Below are positions 49,213-57,595 of a DNA stretch of 64,000 nucleotides, in pieces; within the stretch, counting starts at the first letter, position 1, and each line of letters begins with the position of its first letter. A model generated the notes under the pieces. It did no database searches and was not told the origin of the DNA. It was given only the letters and a program-made list of their open reading frames with translations. The position numbers were made by a program, and so were the translations under genes. The DNA is from Corallococcus sp. AS-1-6 (GTDB lineage Bacteria; Myxococcota; Myxococcia; Myxococcales; Myxococcaceae), in the NCBI RefSeq assembly GCF_020037015.1, contig NZ_JAIQDE010000001.1, positions 372,001-436,000 on the forward strand, in the 5' to 3' direction.

Positions 49213-49662
49213 ATGGAAGCGGTCATCTTCACGGGCATCCAGGGGGCGGGGAAGAGCAGCTTCTACCGGGAGCGCTTCTTCGCCACGCACGTCCGCCTGA
49301 GCCTGGACATGCTCAAGACGCGGCACCGGGAGAAGGTGCTGCTGCGCGCGTGCCTGGAGGCGAAGCAGCCCTTCGTGGTGGACAACACCAACCCCACGGT
49401 GGCGGAGCGCTCCCGCTACATCGCCGCCGCGAAGCAGTTCGGCTTCCGCGTGGTGGGGCTCTACTTCCAGTCGAAGGTCGCGGACGCGCTCCTGCGGAAT
49501 GATCAGCGCCCGGAGGCGCAGCGCGTGCCGCTGGTGGGCGTGCTCGGGACGTACAAGCGATTGCAGGTCCCCAATCCCGAGGAGGGCTTCGACGCGCTGT
49601 TCTTCGTCCGGCTGGGGCCGGACGGTTTCACCGTGGAGGAGTGGCAACGTGAAGTTCGATGA
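49213..49662 (+). CDS. P-loop kinase, polynucleotide-kinase-like
   Basis: 149 residues. Walker A GIQGAGKSS (about residues 8-16), followed by RLSLDMLKTR (Asp for the acceptor) and VVDNTNPTVAERSRYI, the pattern of T4 polynucleotide kinase and its AAA-type relatives. It probably phosphorylates a nucleic-acid 5' end or a small molecule. The start fits the family length; a GAGAGGGGGG ribosome site lies just before the ATG. It overlaps the next gene, a Thg1-like polymerase, by 14 bases, and this pairing hints at RNA end repair, where 5' phosphate status matters. Substrate not known. Confidence 0.85.
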   Translation: MEAVIFTGIQGAGKSSFYRERFFATHVRLSLDMLKTRHREKVLLRACLEAKQPFVVDNTNPTVAERSRYIAAAKQFGFRVVGLYFQSKVADALLRNDQRPEAQRVPLVGVLGTYKRLQVPNPEEGFDALFFVRLGPDGFTVEEWQREVR

Positions 49663-50416
49663 ACTGGACGCGAAGATGCGCGTGTTCGAGACCGCGCACG
49701 ACCTGTGCGTGCTGCCCGGCGTGTTCATGGTGGCGCGCATCGATGGACGCGGCTTCACGCGGCTGACGAAGGAGGTGCACGCCTTCGAGAGCCCCTTCGA
49801 CGTGCGCTTCCGGGACCTGATGGTCGCGACGACCGGGCACCTGATGGACTGCGGCTTCCGGGTCGTCTACGGCTACACGCAGAGCGACGAGATCTCGCTG
49901 CTCTTCCACCCGGACGAGGACACCTTCGGGCGCAAGACGCGCAAGCTCAACTCCCTGCTCGCGGGCGAGGCGAGCGCGAAGTTCTCGCTGCTCCTGGGGG
50001 ACCTGGGCGTGTTCGACTGCCGCATCTGCGAGCTGCCGAACGCGGCGCTCGTGCGCGACTACTTCCGCTGGCGCAGCGAGGACGCGGTGAGGAACGCGCT
50101 GAACGCGCACTGCTACTGGAGCCTGCGCCGCGAAGGGAAGAACGTGGCGGAGGCCACGGGCATGCTCAAGCGCCTGTCGGTGGCGGAGAAGAACGAGCTG
50201 CTCTTCCAGCGGGGCGTGAACTTCAACGACGTGCCGAGCTGGCAGAAGCGCGGGACGGGGCTCTACCGGGAGACGTACACGAAGGAGGCCCGCGACCCGA
50301 GGACGGGCGAGACGGTCCTCGCGGAGCGCCGCCGCCTCAAGGTGGACTACGAGCTGCCGATGAAGGATGCGTACGACGCCTTCATCCTGTCCCTGCTGGA
50401 GGGCGCGGGGCGATAA
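49649..50416 (+). CDS. Thg1-like 3'-5' polymerase (tRNA-His guanylyltransferase family)
   Basis: 255 residues from GTG 49649. Thg1 adds G to the 5' end of tRNA-His in eukaryotes; bacterial and archaeal Thg1-like proteins (TLPs) repair 5'-truncated tRNAs in the 3'-5' direction using a template strand. Catalytic metal residues are present: Asp32 in ARIDGRGFTRLT and Asp80-Glu81 in YTQSDEISLLF; also KFSLLL and WRSEDAVRNALNAHCYW of the family core. Bacterial TLPs are rare but, as I recall, one from Myxococcus xanthus has been tested biochemically. Translationally coupled to the kinase gene and 0.5 kb from rnpB. Confidence 0.93.
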   Translation: MKFDELDAKMRVFETAHDLCVLPGVFMVARIDGRGFTRLTKEVHAFESPFDVRFRDLMVATTGHLMDCGFRVVYGYTQSDEISLLFHPDEDTFGRKTRKLNSLLAGEASAKFSLLLGDLGVFDCRICELPNAALVRDYFRWRSEDAVRNALNAHCYWSLRREGKNVAEATGMLKRLSVAEKNELLFQRGVNFNDVPSWQKRGTGLYRETYTKEARDPRTGETVLAERRRLKVDYELPMKDAYDAFILSLLEGAGR

Positions 50417-50424
50417 TCCTCCGG

Positions 50425-51261
50425 ATGACTTCGATCTCCTTCCGGGTCTGTTCGGGTGTCGTCCTCTTCGTGCTCATGGTGGGCTGTCGGAGCGCGAAAG
50501 AGGGCGGCATCCGTGTGGAGCCCGTGCCCCCGCCTGAGTCGGTGTGGCTGCCGGCCGGGCGCTTCGAGATGGGCTCACCGGCGGGCGAGCCGGACCGCGA
50601 TGTGGACGAAGGGCCCCGGACGGAGATCGCGTTCGAGCGCTTCCGGATGGACGTGACGCCCGTGACGGCGCGGGCCTTCGCGGCGCGACGTGAGCAGGTG
50701 CGCGCGAAGGATCCGCAAGCGCGTTGGTGGACCGACGCGGAGACGCCGAACGGGTGGCTTGGCCGCTGCAACCTGGACTCCGCGCGCACGGAGCATCCCG
50801 TGAACTGCGTGGACTGGCGCGCCGCGCGGGCCTACTGCGAGCTCGTGGGGGGAGCGCTGCCCACGGAGGCGGAGTGGGAATACGCCGTGCGTGCCTCGAC
50901 GACCTCCACCTTCTGGTGGGGAGCGTCGTTCGACGCGCAGCACGTGGTCGGCTCGGTGTCGTGCGGGGCGCGGGGTTGCCTCGGCGGCACGGCCCCGGTG
51001 GTCCAGTCCGGGCCGCGATGCAATGGCTGGGGGCTCTGCGACATGGCCGGGAACGTGTGGCAATGGACCTCCACCGGCTACCAGGAGCGGCTGGGCGAGG
51101 ACGCGCCTCCGGATGCCTCTGGCATGCCGGAGAAGCCTGTCCACCGGGGAGGCGCCTGGCTCAATCACATCCCATCCCTGTTCCGGTCCGCCCACCGGGG
51201 CCTCGCCTATCCAAAGAATGGATTGACGGGAGTGGGGTTCCGCTGCGTGCACCGGCCCTGA
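50425..51261 (+). CDS. Lipoprotein with formylglycine-generating-enzyme-like domain
   Basis: 278 residues. Lipobox LMVGC, then a full FGE/SUMF1 (C-type-lectin-like) domain: WLPAGRFEMGSPAGEPDRD, HPVNCVDWRAARAYCEL, LPTEAEWEYAVR, CDMAGNVWQW, and the end GLTGVGFRCV. Such domains are often non-catalytic binding modules rather than sulfatase-activating enzymes. The catalytic cysteine pair of true FGE is not evident: the end carries a single RC. It starts 8 bases after the Thg1-like gene stop, so co-transcription is possible, but a role in RNA repair is unlikely given its export. Confidence 0.85.
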   Translation: MTSISFRVCSGVVLFVLMVGCRSAKEGGIRVEPVPPPESVWLPAGRFEMGSPAGEPDRDVDEGPRTEIAFERFRMDVTPVTARAFAARREQVRAKDPQARWWTDAETPNGWLGRCNLDSARTEHPVNCVDWRAARAYCELVGGALPTEAEWEYAVRASTTSTFWWGASFDAQHVVGSVSCGARGCLGGTAPVVQSGPRCNGWGLCDMAGNVWQWTSTGYQERLGEDAPPDASGMPEKPVHRGGAWLNHIPSLFRSAHRGLAYPKNGLTGVGFRCVHRP

Positions 51262-51478: not shown

Positions 51479-51976
51479 ATGGTCATTTTCGGTTCGAGGC
51501 TCTACGGCAAGGTCGATGAGATTCCGGGCGTCGGCTACGTGGCGACGAAGTTCGGTCACATCAACTTCGTGCCGCTCATCCCGCTGGAGGGATGGCTCGT
51601 CGTCGCCGAGGAGGGCAATGGCTGGCGGGGAACGGCCATCTCCATGAGCGGCAAGTCCGTGCTCACGGCGTGGGCGCGCCTGCTGTTCCTGGTCGTGGGG
51701 ATCATCTCGCTGCTCACCGGCATCTTCACCTTCGCCGGGAGTCATTCGGCGGATTCTGTCTTCAGCGGTCTGCTCGGCCTGGCCTGCATCGGCGGCCTCA
51801 TCGCTTCGTACAGGTGGAGGTGGGTGACCCACGCGTCGCCGGAGCGCGCGATGGAGGTCGCCCGGGAGGCGGGGATCAGCGAGGAGGGATTGAGGCAGCT
51901 TCGCAACCTGTACGCCGCTCCGCAGGCCTCCACCGTCGCCGCGCCCGCGCAGCCGTGGACGCCGCCGGAGTCCTAG
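51479..51976 (+). CDS. Small membrane protein, FGSRLYGK family
   Basis: 165 residues. Cytosolic N-terminus (IFGSRLYGKVDEIPGVGYVA, then THFG-like KFGHINFVPLIPLEGWLV), two membrane helices (about residues 62-84 and 91-108) and a soluble C-terminus with a short helix and Pro-rich tail. The FGSRLYGKVD...FGHINFVPLIP pattern is found in many bacteria, usually as uncharacterised proteins. Start ATG at 51479 with a GAGGGGG ribosome site. It sits 46 bases before the Hsp70-like gene and may belong to the same transcript. Function unknown. Confidence 0.75.
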   Translation: MVIFGSRLYGKVDEIPGVGYVATKFGHINFVPLIPLEGWLVVAEEGNGWRGTAISMSGKSVLTAWARLLFLVVGIISLLTGIFTFAGSHSADSVFSGLLGLACIGGLIASYRWRWVTHASPERAMEVAREAGISEEGLRQLRNLYAAPQASTVAAPAQPWTPPES

Positions 51977-52022
51977 TCCGCCGCTCGCGGTCCTTCGCCG
52001 AAAGGCCTTGGGTTCTCCTCGC

Positions 52023-53786
52023 ATGAGTCATGTCGTTGGCATCGATCTGGGCACCACGCACTCCCTGGTGGCCGCGCTCGACAGCGCGGGCCGTCCCAAC
52101 CTCCTGACCAACCGGTTGGGGCAGCGCCTCACGCCGTCGGTGGTGGGGCTGGACGCGGAGGGCCGGCTCCACGTGGGCGAGTCCGCGCGAGCGCAGTTGC
52201 TCGTGCATCCGGAGCGCACCATCGCGGAGGTGAAGCGGCGCATGGGCCGCGACCTGCCGGTGACGCTCGGGGACCGGCGCTACAGCCCCACGGAGATCTC
52301 CGCGCTCATCCTGCGAGCGCTGCGCGAGGACGCCGAGCGGGCGCTGGGCGGCGCGGTGACGGAGGCCGTGGTCACGGTGCCCGCCTACTTCAGCGATGCG
52401 CAGCGACAGGCGACCAAGGACGCGGGGGAGCTGGCGGGGCTCAAGGTAGAGCGGCTGCTCAACGAGCCCACCGCCGCGGCGCTCGCGTACGGCGTGAACC
52501 ACCTGGACGCCGAGCAGTACGTGCTGGTGTACGACCTGGGCGGCGGCACGTTCGACGTGTCGGTGCTGGAGATGTTCCAGGGCGTGCTGGACGTGAAGGC
52601 CTCCGCGGGCAACAACCAACTGGGAGGCAGTGACTTCGACCAGGCGCTGGCCGCGTGGCTGGGCGCGGAGTTCGAGCGCGCCCACGGCGTGTCGCTGGCC
52701 GGGAACCTGGCGGCGCAGGTGCGGCTCAAGGCCGCGGCGGAGGCCGCGAAGATCGCGCTCACATCCGTGGAGGCCACGCCGGTCATCGTGCCGTTCCTCG
52801 CGCCGGGCCGGGGAGGCACGCCCGCGTCGCTGGAGGTGGAGGTGACGCGCGCGAGGTTCGAGGCGCTGATCACCGGCCTGGTGCGCTCCACGCTCGATCC
52901 GATGGAGAGCGCGCTGAAGGACGCGAAGCTGGCGAAGAAGTCCATCGCGGAGGTGGTGCTGGTGGGCGGCAGCTCGCGCGTGCCGCTGGTGCGCCGGCTG
53001 GTCGCCGAATACTTCGGACGCGAGCCCCGCGACGGCGTGCACCCCGACGAGGCGGTGGCGCTGGGCGCCGCGCTGCAGGCGGGGCTGAAGACGGGCGCGG
53101 TGAGCGCCGCGCACGGCATCATGATCACCGACGTGTGTCCCTTCACGTTGGGCGTGGAGGTGCAGGCGACGGTGGGGCGCGAGCGGGTGGGCGGAGTGTT
53201 CTCGCCGCTCATCCCGCGCAACACGACGGTGCCGGTGTCGCGCACGGAGACCTTCGCCACGACGGCGGACGGGCAGCGCGCGGTGGAGATCCGCGTGTTC
53301 CAGGGCGAGGCGCGGCTGGTGAAGGACAACCTGCTGCTGGACGCGTACACGGTGGAGGGCGTACCGCCCGGTCGCGCGGGGACGGAGAAGGTCGCGGTCA
53401 CGTTCACGTACGACATCAACGGCATCCTGGACGTGACGACGCGGGTGGTCTCCACGGGCAAGGAGGCCACGCTGGTGGTGGACAAGCGCTCGCAGCGCCT
53501 GGGACCGGAGCAGCGGCTGGAGGCCAAGGAGCGGCTGGCGCGTGAATGGGGCGCGGCCCCGGCGGCGCCGGTGTCCGCACCCGTGACCGCGCCTGTGTCG
53601 CCGGAGGCGGACGCGGATGCCTTGTTGAACGCGGCGACCGAACGGACCGCGACCGCGCCGGAGCATGTCCGTCCCCGGCTGGAGTCGCTGTGCAACGCCT
53701 TGCGCGAGGCCCGCGCGAAGGGCGACCGGGGTGCCGCGGCCCGTCTGGATGCCGAGCTCACGGACCTGCTGTTCGACCTGGGTTGA
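52023..53786 (+). CDS. Hsp70/DnaK-family chaperone
   Basis: 587 residues, shorter than DnaK (about 640). Nucleotide-binding domain: phosphate 1 GIDLGTTHSLVAAL (residues 6-19), phosphate 2 VYDLGGGTFDVSVLE (about 169-183), adenosine motif VLVGGSSRVPLV (about 312-323); a substrate-binding beta-sandwich (about 370-480) and a shortened helical lid ending LTDLLFDLG. The C-terminal EEVD-like tail of DnaK is absent. Myxobacteria have many DnaK paralogues; some (SglK, StkA) control motility and polysaccharide. Here it heads a tight four-gene locus with a TPR-Lon protein and a J-like protein, so a dedicated client is likely. No separate GrpE seen. Confidence 0.93.
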   Translation: MSHVVGIDLGTTHSLVAALDSAGRPNLLTNRLGQRLTPSVVGLDAEGRLHVGESARAQLLVHPERTIAEVKRRMGRDLPVTLGDRRYSPTEISALILRALREDAERALGGAVTEAVVTVPAYFSDAQRQATKDAGELAGLKVERLLNEPTAAALAYGVNHLDAEQYVLVYDLGGGTFDVSVLEMFQGVLDVKASAGNNQLGGSDFDQALAAWLGAEFERAHGVSLAGNLAAQVRLKAAAEAAKIALTSVEATPVIVPFLAPGRGGTPASLEVEVTRARFEALITGLVRSTLDPMESALKDAKLAKKSIAEVVLVGGSSRVPLVRRLVAEYFGREPRDGVHPDEAVALGAALQAGLKTGAVSAAHGIMITDVCPFTLGVEVQATVGRERVGGVFSPLIPRNTTVPVSRTETFATTADGQRAVEIRVFQGEARLVKDNLLLDAYTVEGVPPGRAGTEKVAVTFTYDINGILDVTTRVVSTGKEATLVVDKRSQRLGPEQRLEAKERLAREWGAAPAAPVSAPVTAPVSPEADADALLNAATERTATAPEHVRPRLESLCNALREARAKGDRGAAARLDAELTDLLFDLG

Positions 53787-53792
53787 GCGCGC

Positions 53793-55313
53793 GTGCTCCT
53801 GACTGAGCTCAAGCGCGCGGTGGTGCTGCGTCCGGCCGAACCCTCGGCGCGGCTGGCATTGGCCGAAGCGCTGTTCCAGGAGCGTGACTTTCGCGGGTCC
53901 GCGGAGCACGCACGCAAGGCATTGGACCTGGGCGGAGGTGGGCCCGCGCGCCGCCTCCTGTGTGGAGCCCTGGCGCGCGACGGTAAACGGACGGAGGCGA
54001 GGACGCTGCTGGAGGCGGCCGTTCGCGAAGCGCCTCGCGATGCATCCCTGCGCGTGGAGTTGGTCACCTTCCTGGAGGAGGAACGGCCGGACGACGCGCT
54101 CGTGCATGCGTTCGAGGCCACCGAAGCCGCGCCCGGTGAGCTGGAGGCCTGGCGCGCCGTCATCCGTCTGTGCGAGCGCACGAACCGGCCTACCGAAGCC
54201 ATGCCCGCGCTCAGGCGGGCCCGTCTCCTTGCACCGGAGGATCCCCGCCTCGCGGAGTCGGTGCTCGGGGCGCGAACGGCGCTCGGACTTCCGGCCAGCA
54301 CCGCCATGCTGGACGCGCCTCCCCTGGAGCAGGCCTCGCAGGCGCTCAAGCTGCCCACGGCGCGTGCCGCGCTCTCCGAGGCGAAGCTCGACGCGGCCGT
54401 TGAAGCGCTCTCCCGGGGCGCGTTCGCGGAGGTGAAGCGGCAGCTCGTCATCGCACCCGCGGCGACCCGGGCCAGCGCCGCCGCGGCCCTGCTCCGCGCG
54501 GAGTTGCTGTGGCTGGAGGGACGGCCCGCCGCCCAGGTCGAAGAGGCCCGTCGCGCCGTGCTCGACATGGCGGGGGCACCGGGGGCCGCGGCGCTGCGCC
54601 TGGGGGACCTGCGGCTCGAAGCGGGTGCGCTGGACGCGGCACAAGCGCTCTACGCCCGAGCGGGTGCGAATGGAGAGTCCCTGGCGGCGGCGGGCCGCGA
54701 CGCCGAAGTCGCCGAACGCCGCCGTCTGCTGGCGCGTGACCTGCCCGCGGTCGGGCGCGTGGGCGTGCTCGGCTGGCATCCCGGGGGCGGGCATGTCTCG
54801 CCGCTGGAGGCGGTGGCGGTCCCCGGGCGCGGCGTGCTGCGGTGCAGTGGCCGCGTGGGGCCCGAAGGTCAGGAGGCCGCGGACGTGGCCTTCAGCGTGG
54901 TGCGTGCGCGCGCTCCCGCGCTGAGCCTGGGGACGCTCACGACCCGTTACGACCTGCACCTGCACTACACGGACACGGAGGTCGGCAAGGACGGCCTGTC
55001 CTCCGGGCTCGCGCTCTCGCTGGCGGGCCTCTCCGCGTACACGCAGCGCCCGCTGCCCGCGCGGCTGGCCGTGACGGGCGAACTGACGCTGAACGGTGAA
55101 GTGCGACGGGTGGGCGGCGTGCACGAGAAGTTGGTGGCCGCGTACCTCGAAGGCATGCGCGTGGTGCTGCACCCGCGCCGCAACCTGGACGACGTGGCGG
55201 CGCTGCCGCCCGAAGTGTCCGGACGCCTGCGATTGATCGCGGTGGACAGCTTGGATGAGGCGTGGCGGCTCGTGAACGCGACCGCGAACACGCCAGGACT
55301 GGAGCGAAGGTGA
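53793..55313 (+). CDS. TPR protein fused to a Lon-type (S16) protease domain without AAA+
   Basis: 506 residues from a GTG 6 bases after the Hsp70 stop. Residues 1 to about 330 form a helical TPR-like array. Residues from about 375 to 490 match the C-terminal proteolytic domain of Lon: DLHLHYTD near 390, GKDGLSSG with Ser403, and RVGGVHEKLVAA with Lys446. Ser403-Lys446 is 43 residues, the same as Ser679-Lys722 of E. coli Lon, so the Ser-Lys dyad looks intact. No Walker A or B: there is no ATPase motor. Substrates may be delivered by the neighbouring Hsp70. Distinct from RadA/Sms, which also carries a Lon-like domain but with ATPase. The J-like gene overlaps its stop. Confidence 0.87.
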   Translation: MLLTELKRAVVLRPAEPSARLALAEALFQERDFRGSAEHARKALDLGGGGPARRLLCGALARDGKRTEARTLLEAAVREAPRDASLRVELVTFLEEERPDDALVHAFEATEAAPGELEAWRAVIRLCERTNRPTEAMPALRRARLLAPEDPRLAESVLGARTALGLPASTAMLDAPPLEQASQALKLPTARAALSEAKLDAAVEALSRGAFAEVKRQLVIAPAATRASAAAALLRAELLWLEGRPAAQVEEARRAVLDMAGAPGAAALRLGDLRLEAGALDAAQALYARAGANGESLAAAGRDAEVAERRRLLARDLPAVGRVGVLGWHPGGGHVSPLEAVAVPGRGVLRCSGRVGPEGQEAADVAFSVVRARAPALSLGTLTTRYDLHLHYTDTEVGKDGLSSGLALSLAGLSAYTQRPLPARLAVTGELTLNGEVRRVGGVHEKLVAAYLEGMRVVLHPRRNLDDVAALPPEVSGRLRLIAVDSLDEAWRLVNATANTPGLERR

Positions 55314-57595
55314 ACAACGAGCCCCGCCAGAACCCCTACGAGGTGCTGGGCGTCGAGAAGGACGCGGATGCGCGCGCCATAAAGAAGGCGTACTTCGAGC
55401 GCGTCCGGCAGAACCCGCCGGAGACGCATCCGGAGGAGTTCCGGCGCCTGCGCGAAGCGTACGAGCTGCTCTCCGACCCCGAGGCACGCCAGGCCTTCGA
55501 CGCCAGCGCCGCGCAACAGGCGGACGGCCCGGAGGCGGCGAAGAACGCCGCGCTCCAGGAAGCCATCAGCCTGTTCGAGGCCGGCGACAAGGCCGGCGGC
55601 CGGAGGCTCCTCACCGAGCTGCTCAACGAGCAGCCGGACTTCCACGACGCGCGCATCCTGCTGGGCCGCCACTTCCTCTACGAGGGTGACGCCAAGGAGG
55701 CGCTGGCGGAGTTCGACGCCCTGCTCGCGCGGGCACCGGACCACTGGCAGGGGCACCTGCAACGGGGCTGGGCGCTGCTCCGGCTGGAGCAGATGAAGGA
55801 AGCCGCGGATGCCTTCTGGCGCGCGGGCAAGCACGGTCCATCGGAAGTGGGCCCTCGGGTGGCGCTGGCGGACTGCCTGGAGGCGATGGGGCAGGTGGCG
55901 GACTCGCTCAAGGTGCTCGAGCAGGCGCAGTCGCTGCCCGGCATCTCGCGGATGGACGTGCTCGCCCTCAAGGTGCGGCGCATCGCGACGATGCTGGAGT
56001 TCGGCCAGGACGCCGACGCCGCGAAGGAGCTGGAGCGGCTGGACGCCGAGCTGCCGGAGGACGCCGACCCCGAGCTGCGCCGGTGGACCGGAGGGCAGCT
56101 CTCCTCGGCCGCCGCGCACCTCTTCGCCCAGCAGAAGTCCAAGGGCGCGAACCAGTTGCTCGCGTTCGGCCGGCGGTTCAACCCGGAGAGCGCCACGGAG
56201 GTCGCGTATCCCACGCGCGTCATCCTGGACGTGGACGCCCTGCCGCCCGTCACCCGCGAATGGCTGCACGCGGAGGCCGAGCGGACCGACGGCTGGCGCG
56301 CCGTGATGACCTGGGTGATGCCGGCCATCCTCACGTTGGGCGCCGCCGCCGCCACGGCCTTCCTCCTGGCCTTCATCTCCTTCGGCATCTCCGAGCGCGA
56401 TGTCTGGGATTGGGTCTGGTGCGCGGTCTTCGCGGCCGTCTTCTCCGGCGTCACCTGGGCCCTGGCGCGCAGGCTCCTGCGGGTGATGGCGAGCCCCTAT
56501 GGGCGCTTCAACACCATCCATCCCCTGCACCTCATCCAGGTGGCCATCGACCGCATCACCGTGTGGCCGCTCGTGCACCTGCAGGACCTGCAGTTGGTGA
56601 ACCGCCACGTCAACGGCGCCTACCAGTTCACGGCCATCGAGCTGCGCTTCAACGACAAGCGCATGACCCTGCCGGTGCACGGCCGTGAGAAGGCGGAGGC
56701 GCTGGCCCAGGAGCTGATTGCCCGGCGCCGCCGCGTCCTGGAGTTGCTGGGCCGGGGCATGCTGGACGCGGAGAGCGGGGTGGAGCACCTGCCTCCGGCG
56801 CTGCTGGCGCGCGCGGACACGAAGGGCCGCGTGCGAGCGGAGAACGCCCGCTCCGCCTGGCCCGGCGTGTTCGCCGCCGCGGGGGTGGGCGTGTTGCTGG
56901 TGGCCGGTGCCGTGTGGCCGCAGCGGCAGACCGCCTCGGCGCACGCCTGGACGCGCGTCGCGTCCCAGGGGGACCTGAGCTCCATGCTCAAGTACCTGCG
57001 CGAGCAGTCTGACTCCCGCTTCACCCCGCGGATCCAGGCCCGGGTGGACGCGGAGCTGGACAAGGCGCGCGCGCGGCTAGTGGAGCGGTTGGAGCCGGGC
57101 AGCGCCGCGGCGCCATCCCGCGAGTTCTTCGGAAGCCTGCTGGACGCCGTCCAACGCAAGCACAGCCGCCGCGTCAACGTGGAGTGGGAGGCGCCGGCCG
57201 GGACGCGGACGTCGGCTCGGGAGGACCCTTCGGACCTGCTCGTGAGCGCCTGGCAACGGACGGTGGATGAAGCGCTGGGGCAGGGCGTCCTCGTCGTGGA
57301 CCAGGGGCGGGGGCTGCCGGTGAACGGACCGCCGGTGCTCACCCTGCGCGTGCGGGAGGCGCTGAGGCCCGGAGCGGGAGGCGCGTCGTCGCAGCGGGTC
57401 TGGTCGGTGGCCCAGGAAGGGCTCGGAGCGGATGCGCCGGCTCCGCCGCTGGAGTTGGTGGCCGACGCGGCGGATCCGCGTGCCCTGGAGGTCCTCTTCC
57501 GCGCGTGGGTGGACCGCTGGCACCTGCCCGGCGCGGGAAATCGCCGTCCGCTGTTGCTGACCGCTTCGACGCTCGTGCAGGAGGCCCGGCCGTGA
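55310..57595 (+). CDS. Membrane J-domain-like protein with TPRs, HPD missing
   Basis: 761 residues from a GTG at 55310, overlapping the previous stop (GTGA), with GGAG 5 bases upstream. N-terminal J-like domain (about residues 8-65; NPYEVLGVEKDADARAIKKAY, LREAYELLSDPEARQAF); where J-domains carry the Hsp70-activating HPD, this has RQNPPETHP, so it should not stimulate ATPase in the normal way. Then TPR-like repeats (about 75-260), two membrane helices (about 345-390), a middle soluble part, a third helix (about 520-540) and a C-terminal soluble domain of about 220 residues. The HPPE-like J variant occurs in other bacteria, usually as membrane proteins near Hsp70 genes. Confidence 0.85.
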   Translation: MNNEPRQNPYEVLGVEKDADARAIKKAYFERVRQNPPETHPEEFRRLREAYELLSDPEARQAFDASAAQQADGPEAAKNAALQEAISLFEAGDKAGGRRLLTELLNEQPDFHDARILLGRHFLYEGDAKEALAEFDALLARAPDHWQGHLQRGWALLRLEQMKEAADAFWRAGKHGPSEVGPRVALADCLEAMGQVADSLKVLEQAQSLPGISRMDVLALKVRRIATMLEFGQDADAAKELERLDAELPEDADPELRRWTGGQLSSAAAHLFAQQKSKGANQLLAFGRRFNPESATEVAYPTRVILDVDALPPVTREWLHAEAERTDGWRAVMTWVMPAILTLGAAAATAFLLAFISFGISERDVWDWVWCAVFAAVFSGVTWALARRLLRVMASPYGRFNTIHPLHLIQVAIDRITVWPLVHLQDLQLVNRHVNGAYQFTAIELRFNDKRMTLPVHGREKAEALAQELIARRRRVLELLGRGMLDAESGVEHLPPALLARADTKGRVRAENARSAWPGVFAAAGVGVLLVAGAVWPQRQTASAHAWTRVASQGDLSSMLKYLREQSDSRFTPRIQARVDAELDKARARLVERLEPGSAAAPSREFFGSLLDAVQRKHSRRVNVEWEAPAGTRTSAREDPSDLLVSAWQRTVDEALGQGVLVVDQGRGLPVNGPPVLTLRVREALRPGAGGASSQRVWSVAQEGLGADAPAPPLELVADAADPRALEVLFRAWVDRWHLPGAGNRRPLLLTASTLVQEARP

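Follow-up and report, generated by a model that had tools for sequence, protein, structure and literature searches.

In the well-studied ATP-dependent bacterial proteases, unfolding is done by an AAA+ ring. Eukaryotic TPR co-chaperones clamp the EEVD tail of Hsp70, and in CHIP, Hop and Tom71 a TPR solenoid is joined to a module that decides the fate of clients beside Hsp70. Motorless S16 enzymes are already known, namely LonC, YlbL and CalpL. MtaLonC of Meiothermus cuts unfolded, but not folded, proteins without ATP; its authors propose a degenerate AAA-like module, and nucleotide binding has been shown (PMC3391209). YlbL of Bacillus is built as transmembrane segment, Lon domain and PDZ domain, with a Ser-Lys dyad and no AAA+ part, and the available text describes action on YneA in cells and activity that was undetected in vitro (PMC6051672). 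CalpL, a SAVED-Lon protein of type III CRISPR, is activated by oligomerisation and cuts CalpT (PMC11417357). Additionally, Hsp70 genes with DnaJ- or TPR-fused partners have been described in GTPase-centred conflict systems, in a paper whose available text does not contain 'Lon' as a whole word (PMC7159879).

The DNA analysed here (the window) is a stretch of 64,000 nucleotides from the soil bacterium Corallococcus sp. AS-1-6. It contains a gene, referred to below as TPR-Lon, which lies in a compact row of genes on the same strand that code, in this order, for an Hsp70, TPR-Lon, a J protein and a TPR-like protein, with a small hydrophobic protein as a possible further member at the upstream end (Table 1). 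The preliminary description of TPR-Lon as a motorless Lon domain on a TPR scaffold beside an Hsp70 matches the sequence, and conservation of the neighbourhood extends far outside this genome. What seems to be new is the combination of a TPR module and a fixed Hsp70/PPE-J partnership around an S16 domain. Neither a TPR-S16 protease nor an Hsp70/TPR-Lon operon was found in a search of titles and the beginnings of abstracts in the open-access literature, which does not imply absence from print.

Table 1. Features of the TPR-Lon gene row, with positions in the window
Feature	Position	Strand	Basis or remark
Small protein with two hydrophobic segments, upstream of Hsp70	51479..51976	+	8xMP PF24838 below cut-off
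Hsp70/DnaK-type gene, 587 aa	52023..53786	+	HSP70 PF00012 E=1.5e-159
TPR-Lon gene, 506 aa, GTG start	53793..55313	+	Motorless S16 protease by sequence
TPR-type alpha solenoid, residues 1 to ~310	53793..54722	+	Pfam TPR_19/TPR_14 and AF2 model
Complete S16/Lon proteolytic domain, residues 317-494	54741..55274	+	Pfam, PDB phmmer, model
Ser403, nucleophile position (E. coli Lon S679)	54999..55001	+	Alignment; 21/21 copies
Lys446, dyad lysine position (E. coli Lon K722)	55128..55130	+	Alignment; 21/21 copies
J protein, 761 aa: J domain (PPE for HPD), TPRs, three hydrophobic segments	55310..57595	+	DnaJ PF00226 E=5.4e-13; hydropathy
TPR-like protein, 594 aa, one N-terminal hydrophobic segment	57592..59376	+	TPR_19 below cut-off; hydropathy

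The GTG start of TPR-Lon is backed by close orthologues, which read MLL(T/S)(E/D)LKRAVV at the same place, many of them with ATG. Pfam Lon_C (PF05362) matches residues 317-490 (E=1.5e-35; profile positions 24-198 of 205; 123.1 bits against a cut-off of 21.1) and the best PDB matches by phmmer are Lon proteolytic domains, with E. coli Lon matching over 319-493 (E=1.1e-28). The top NCBIfam match is TIGR00763 (lon), which at 114.3 of 608.05 bits is below the equivalog cut-off, and ChlI (PF13541) matches residues 396-464 slightly below its Pfam cut-off. A Lon domain had been placed at about residues 375-490; the assignment holds but the boundaries do not, as the complete domain runs from about 317 to 494 and starts some 58 residues earlier. 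In the first third of the protein there are matches above cut-off to TPR_19 (E=5.9e-8) and TPR_14 (E=4.7e-6). Residues 1-330 had been called TPR-like without a Walker motif. The TPR character was borne out and a pattern scan found no Walker A motif anywhere in the protein, but the solenoid ends at about residue 310. There is no Pfam match at E<=0.01 to an AAA+ family, to PDZ or to a SAVED/CARF sensor. A Lon N-domain was not found either, and no hydrophobic segment exceeds the hydropathy cut used.

The structure predictions agree with this layout. A full-length AlphaFold model built with nine close sequences (pTM 0.59) is all-helical over residues 1-310, with block pLDDT values of 79-95. The Lon part of that model was poor (pLDDT <50 for 327-444) and residues 312-506 were therefore modelled alone with 70 sequences, giving a pLDDT of 88.1 and a pTM of 0.88. 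This model upheld the proposed S16 fold: VIA-align superposed it on Yersinia Lon (6on2) with Z 27.9 and an rmsd of 1.6 A over 183 residues, and on the E. coli Lon domain (3wu6) with Z 27.4; human Lon, Thermus Lon and BrxL were also among the matches. In the model, Ser403 (residue 92) falls within the helix 91-106 and Lys446 (residue 135) within the helix 132-141. Structural matches of the solenoid include many TPR proteins, with Z up to 14.1. Because helical repeats can reach such values by shape alone, the TPR assignment is carried by Pfam. Tom71 with an Hsp70 tail (3lca) is one of these matches (Z 12.8, rmsd 6.5 over 164 residues).

Alignment with E. coli Lon, whose sequence was taken from a plasmid copy of the gene, gives 69 identical residues among 180 aligned and places Ser403 on S679 and Lys446 on K722. 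Residues E614, H665, H667, K675, D676, T704 and E721 of E. coli Lon are also identical in TPR-Lon; P678 is replaced by Leu, and TPR-Lon reads KDGLSSG where E. coli Lon has KDGPSAG. Across 20 aligned copies, the window included, Ser403, Lys399, Thr428, Glu445 and Lys446 are invariant, E339 is kept in 19 and both H389 and H391 in 19, and at position 400 D is found in 17 copies and E in the other three. This table leaves out genome G082, where the gene is split over two contigs; the Lon half of that copy was read separately and keeps the dyad. The dyad is therefore present in all 21 copies read, with a Ser-Lys spacing of 43 in every one. By predicted fold and Ser-Lys dyad, TPR-Lon belongs to the S16 peptidases. 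From its sequence we would expect it to be proteolytic and independent of ATP.

TPR-Lon thus has the predicted fold and the dyad in common with LonA, but where LonA and LonB have AAA+ with Walker motifs in the chain it has a TPR solenoid. LonC shares with it the lack of ATPase power in an S16 enzyme; however, LonC as described has an AAA-like module with Walker-like motifs in place of a TPR solenoid, and this sets TPR-Lon apart from it (PMC3391209). LonC had been given as an example of Lon without AAA+, for which its degenerate AAA-like module and nucleotide binding make it a poor choice (PMC3391209). According to the available texts YlbL (PMC6051672) and CalpL (PMC11417357) are better precedents. 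YlbL, which is likely to act outside, differs by its transmembrane segment and PDZ domain, neither of which is seen in TPR-Lon. CalpL is also a Lon protease domain fused to a non-AAA module (PMC11417357), but that module is a SAVED sensor, whereas TPR-Lon has no SAVED/CARF match and lies in a chaperone neighbourhood. The likeness to CHIP, Hop and Tom71 is one of analogy only; TPR-Lon has no ligase domain and the Hsp70 beside it has no EEVD.

The genes of the row are closely packed. Six bases separate the Hsp70 stop from the TPR-Lon start, and the TPR-Lon/J and J/TPR-like junctions are 4-base GTGA overlaps. The Hsp70 gene is the next gene upstream of TPR-Lon in all 20 loci whose contig reaches that far, and in 20 of 21 loci the J gene directly follows TPR-Lon; in the remaining one, genome G146, it lies about 6 kb downstream. 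The order Hsp70 then TPR-Lon holds even in loci L054 and L057, where TPR-Lon is 32-41% identical over most of its length. The TPR-like gene is present in every close locus whose sequence extends far enough, and L058 has a relative of it adjacent to the J gene but on the opposite strand. The small hydrophobic protein is possibly a member of the row; a homologue adjoins the cassette in genome G156 too, on the opposite strand there. Taken together, these data support the suggested coupling to Hsp70 to the extent of conserved gene order and co-occurrence, that is, as genome context rather than binding.

In the scanned frame of 592 residues, the DnaK profile covers the Hsp70 of the window no further than residue 496, and the PRK00290 match stops at profile position 498 of 625. 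The cassette Hsp70 tail is conserved in the 19 sequences read, for example as LTDLLFDLG (window 53751-53786) or LTDALFDLE. None of the 19 ends in EEVD; the ends are (F/L)(D/E)L followed by G, E, EG or DG. This set leaves out L059, because its Hsp70 match is split, and L055, because its contig begins within TPR-Lon. The last 12 residues have a mean conservation of 0.92, as against 0.70 in residues 496-550 and 0.89 in the ATPase and beta parts; the tail is therefore notable only beside the variable stretch before it, being on a level with the catalytic parts. It is possible that the tail acts as a docking tag for TPR proteins. The Hsp70 match of L041 and L059 is broken in two around residues 528-545, which points to an insertion or a frame change.

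The J protein, which is probably membrane-bound to judge from its hydrophobic segments, has PPE where canonical J proteins have HPD, as do all 20 cassette loci read (the window, L045-L062 and others). A profile made from the cassette J domains and run against 189 genomes drawn from the phylum gave 24 listed matches of at least 89 bits, the next being at 74. All 24 are in cassette genomes save one, in genome G005, and 19 of the 21 cassette genomes are represented; the other two (G072 and G156) were presumably not drawn. The 30 loci of this search comprise 20 with PPE, five with HPD and five that do not match the motif pattern. A PPE-type J domain was not met among the literature matches listed (titles and the beginnings of abstracts), which again does not imply absence from print. 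Genome G146 has five PPE-type J genes (L057, L095, L096, L097), four of which are off the contig that carries TPR-Lon.

Genome G005 belongs to another part of the phylum. Its PPE J domain is near an Hsp70 that ends in EELLFYLEGR, and no TPR-Lon was found in the 9 kb stretch around the two genes, which suggests that the Hsp70/PPE-J pair can exist without TPR-Lon. From this one case, the pair may be the older unit and TPR-Lon an output added to it.

TPR-Lon was found in at least 21 of 195 genomes of the phylum (Myxococcota) among the matches listed: 14 of the 16 of the window's own genus, two of the 27 of g19, and G069, G072, G105, G146 and G156. Copies were called at a Lon-domain identity of at least 48%; the matches next in rank do not exceed 42%, and most of them have open frames as long as a full Lon. 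The count reaches down to about E=2e-29 among the matches listed and weaker copies would be missed. The cassette is common to two families. When the J protein was used as the query, the 21 genomes that hold TPR-Lon all matched strongly (E <=3.2e-59), and a further 14 genomes matched weakly, with E values no better than 8.6e-11. A search of contigs with the window protein alone, which retrieves close relatives only, gave ten loci, nine of them named Corallococcus or Myxococcaceae. Among 64 distinct stop-free Lon domains from viral contigs (66 of 80 loci examined) no TPR-Lon was recognised: 55 of these have a frame open for at least 582 residues upstream and are LonA-like, with the upstream part judged by length alone, the frames of eight run into the contig end and one, L171, looks like a truncated Lon. 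The best 15 of 64 plasmid records are annotated as Lon or unannotated at the match.

The genome of the window has four Lon_C matches, which are two frames of full Lon size (830 and 873), TPR-Lon and a 457-residue RadA-like frame. A FastTree phylogeny of 43 domains was rooted on the genome's RadA. In it all 20 TPR-Lon domains group together (support 0.94) in a clade that excludes the sampled LonA domains, the genome's own two among them. On this tree TPR-Lon is a separate lineage and not a recent copy of a local LonA. When the window is paired with each of eight chosen close relatives, the Lon domain gives dN/dS values of 0.021-0.216 and the TPR part values of 0.137-0.296, which indicates purifying selection. 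Across 19 full-length copies 66 positions are invariant, 51 of them within the Lon domain, and conservation is 0.85 for the Lon domain against 0.74 for the TPR part. The frames are open in all 20 aligned copies, one of which is a contig-end fragment.

The reading that we favour, at about an even chance, is that TPR-Lon is an ATP-independent S16 Ser-Lys protease, docked through its TPRs to a dedicated Hsp70 and J protein from which it receives unfolded clients. The J protein, probably in the membrane, would gather clients and the Hsp70 would bind them and keep them unfolded using ATP. The solenoid would dock TPR-Lon to this team, encoded by the flanking genes, and TPR-Lon, which has no motor of its own, would cut the unfolded chains without ATP. 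A motorless enzyme needs clients that are already unfolded, so the Hsp70 next door is the obvious supplier. Binding of the TPR part to Hsp70 (or to the J protein), placement at the membrane and the oligomeric state are what we infer here. A docked protease is favoured because the S16 domain is complete, its catalytic residues are invariant and dN/dS is low; because TPR-Lon and the J gene occur in the same genomes, with Hsp70 next upstream and GTGA overlaps in the row; because the J domain and the Hsp70 tail are both specialised; and because MtaLonC, as described, is a precedent for ATP-independent cutting by an S16 enzyme (PMC3391209). Counting against it, the cassette Hsp70 does not end in EEVD, TPR domains bind many things other than chaperones, the J gene of G146 is set apart and the G005 pair appears without TPR-Lon. 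We suggest more tentatively, and think it somewhat unlikely, that the Hsp70 and the PPE J protein take over the unfoldase role of the AAA+ ring and that the solenoid docks to the LTDLLFDLG-like tail. If so, folding and destruction would be wired into one machine from one gene row. A Lon domain that has no ring, and whose gene order links it firmly to an Hsp70/J pair, offers a natural way to ask if a protease can be fed directly by Hsp70. The J protein, which lacks HPD yet keeps to an Hsp70 of its own, is relevant to the switching of Hsp70. The small size of the cassette makes it conceivable to rebuild it in vitro from three proteins.

Alternatively, TPR-Lon could be a regulatory processing protease whose TPRs recognise one or a few partners and whose S16 domain makes a specific cut upon a stress signal from Hsp70/J. 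Recognition of partners is a typical task of TPRs, the row itself encodes a TPR-like protein that has a hydrophobic segment, and two motorless S16 enzymes with a non-AAA module, CalpL and YlbL, act on particular targets according to the available texts (PMC11417357, PMC6051672). The Hsp70 genes with DnaJ- or TPR-fused partners in GTPase-centred conflict systems would fit as well (PMC7159879). However, the cassette has no known sigma/anti-sigma pair and no gene that stands out as a single substrate, and the genes to which TPR-Lon is tightly linked encode chaperones, whose clients are many; we regard a processing role as possible but doubtful. That TPR-Lon works on targets of its own, and is beside the Hsp70 gene merely as a co-regulated stress-response gene, we think quite improbable. 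DnaK and Lon are commonly co-regulated and a shared transcript alone can explain linkage, but the order is the same in distant genomes, where the Thg1-type gene found upstream of the close loci is in none of the stretches L052-L058 (those of L054 and L055 are too short upstream), and the J protein and Hsp70 are themselves of unusual types.

The Lon domain might also be a non-proteolytic, oligomerising scaffold, as in RadA, which would make the protein a TPR adaptor that organises the Hsp70/J machine. RadA has a Lon-like fold and its Lon part acts as a scaffold; by eye, this genome's RadA lacks a serine where the dyad serine would be (in the stretch SEPACD). TPR-Lon differs in that 20-21 copies retain the dyad and neighbouring catalytic residues, even at domain identities as low as about 48%, and its Lon domain is more conserved than the TPR part, so a scaffold is very unlikely. 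Finally, a patchy occurrence (among the matches listed, at least 21 of 195 genomes of the phylum, and not seen in two of the 16 of its own genus) would suit a functionless remnant of a LonA gene joined to a TPR gene by decay or chance. A remnant is hardly credible with dN/dS of 0.02-0.30 in both domains (eight pairs), open frames in the aligned copies, a cassette shared across two families and a single clade that is not a copy of a local LonA.

Two further identities were considered and rejected. PADLOC, searched for a defence system, matched BrxL and CARF-Lon in the shared Lon part, with CARF_LON weak (E=0.003) and confined to the Lon part of TPR-Lon, and gave one weak match in the Hsp70. In the M. 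xanthus stk locus, as described in the available text, StkA is followed by the SCP2-type StkB and the PhaE-like StkC and neither TPR-Lon nor a J gene is included (PMC4319316). The term TPR is absent from the available main text of two papers on M. xanthus Hsp70 (PMC8265645, PMC11019930).

Some minor features of these loci were also seen. Upstream of the cassette, positions 49499-51261 of the window hold a gene for a Thg1-type tRNA-His guanylyltransferase and then one for an FGE-sulfatase domain protein. The gap between Hsp70 and TPR-Lon is about 90-270 bases in eight close genomes (L035, L045-L051) in comparison with six in the window, and at least in L035, L048 and L050 it contains, by eye, degenerate tandem copies of the TPR-Lon 5' end. 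In L042 and L060 the TPR part of TPR-Lon has a 61-residue low-complexity insert of GTTGPGAR-like repeats. An open frame of 1203 aa on the minus strand (51876-55487) is antisense to the Hsp70 and TPR-Lon genes and is probably an artefact of high-GC codons.
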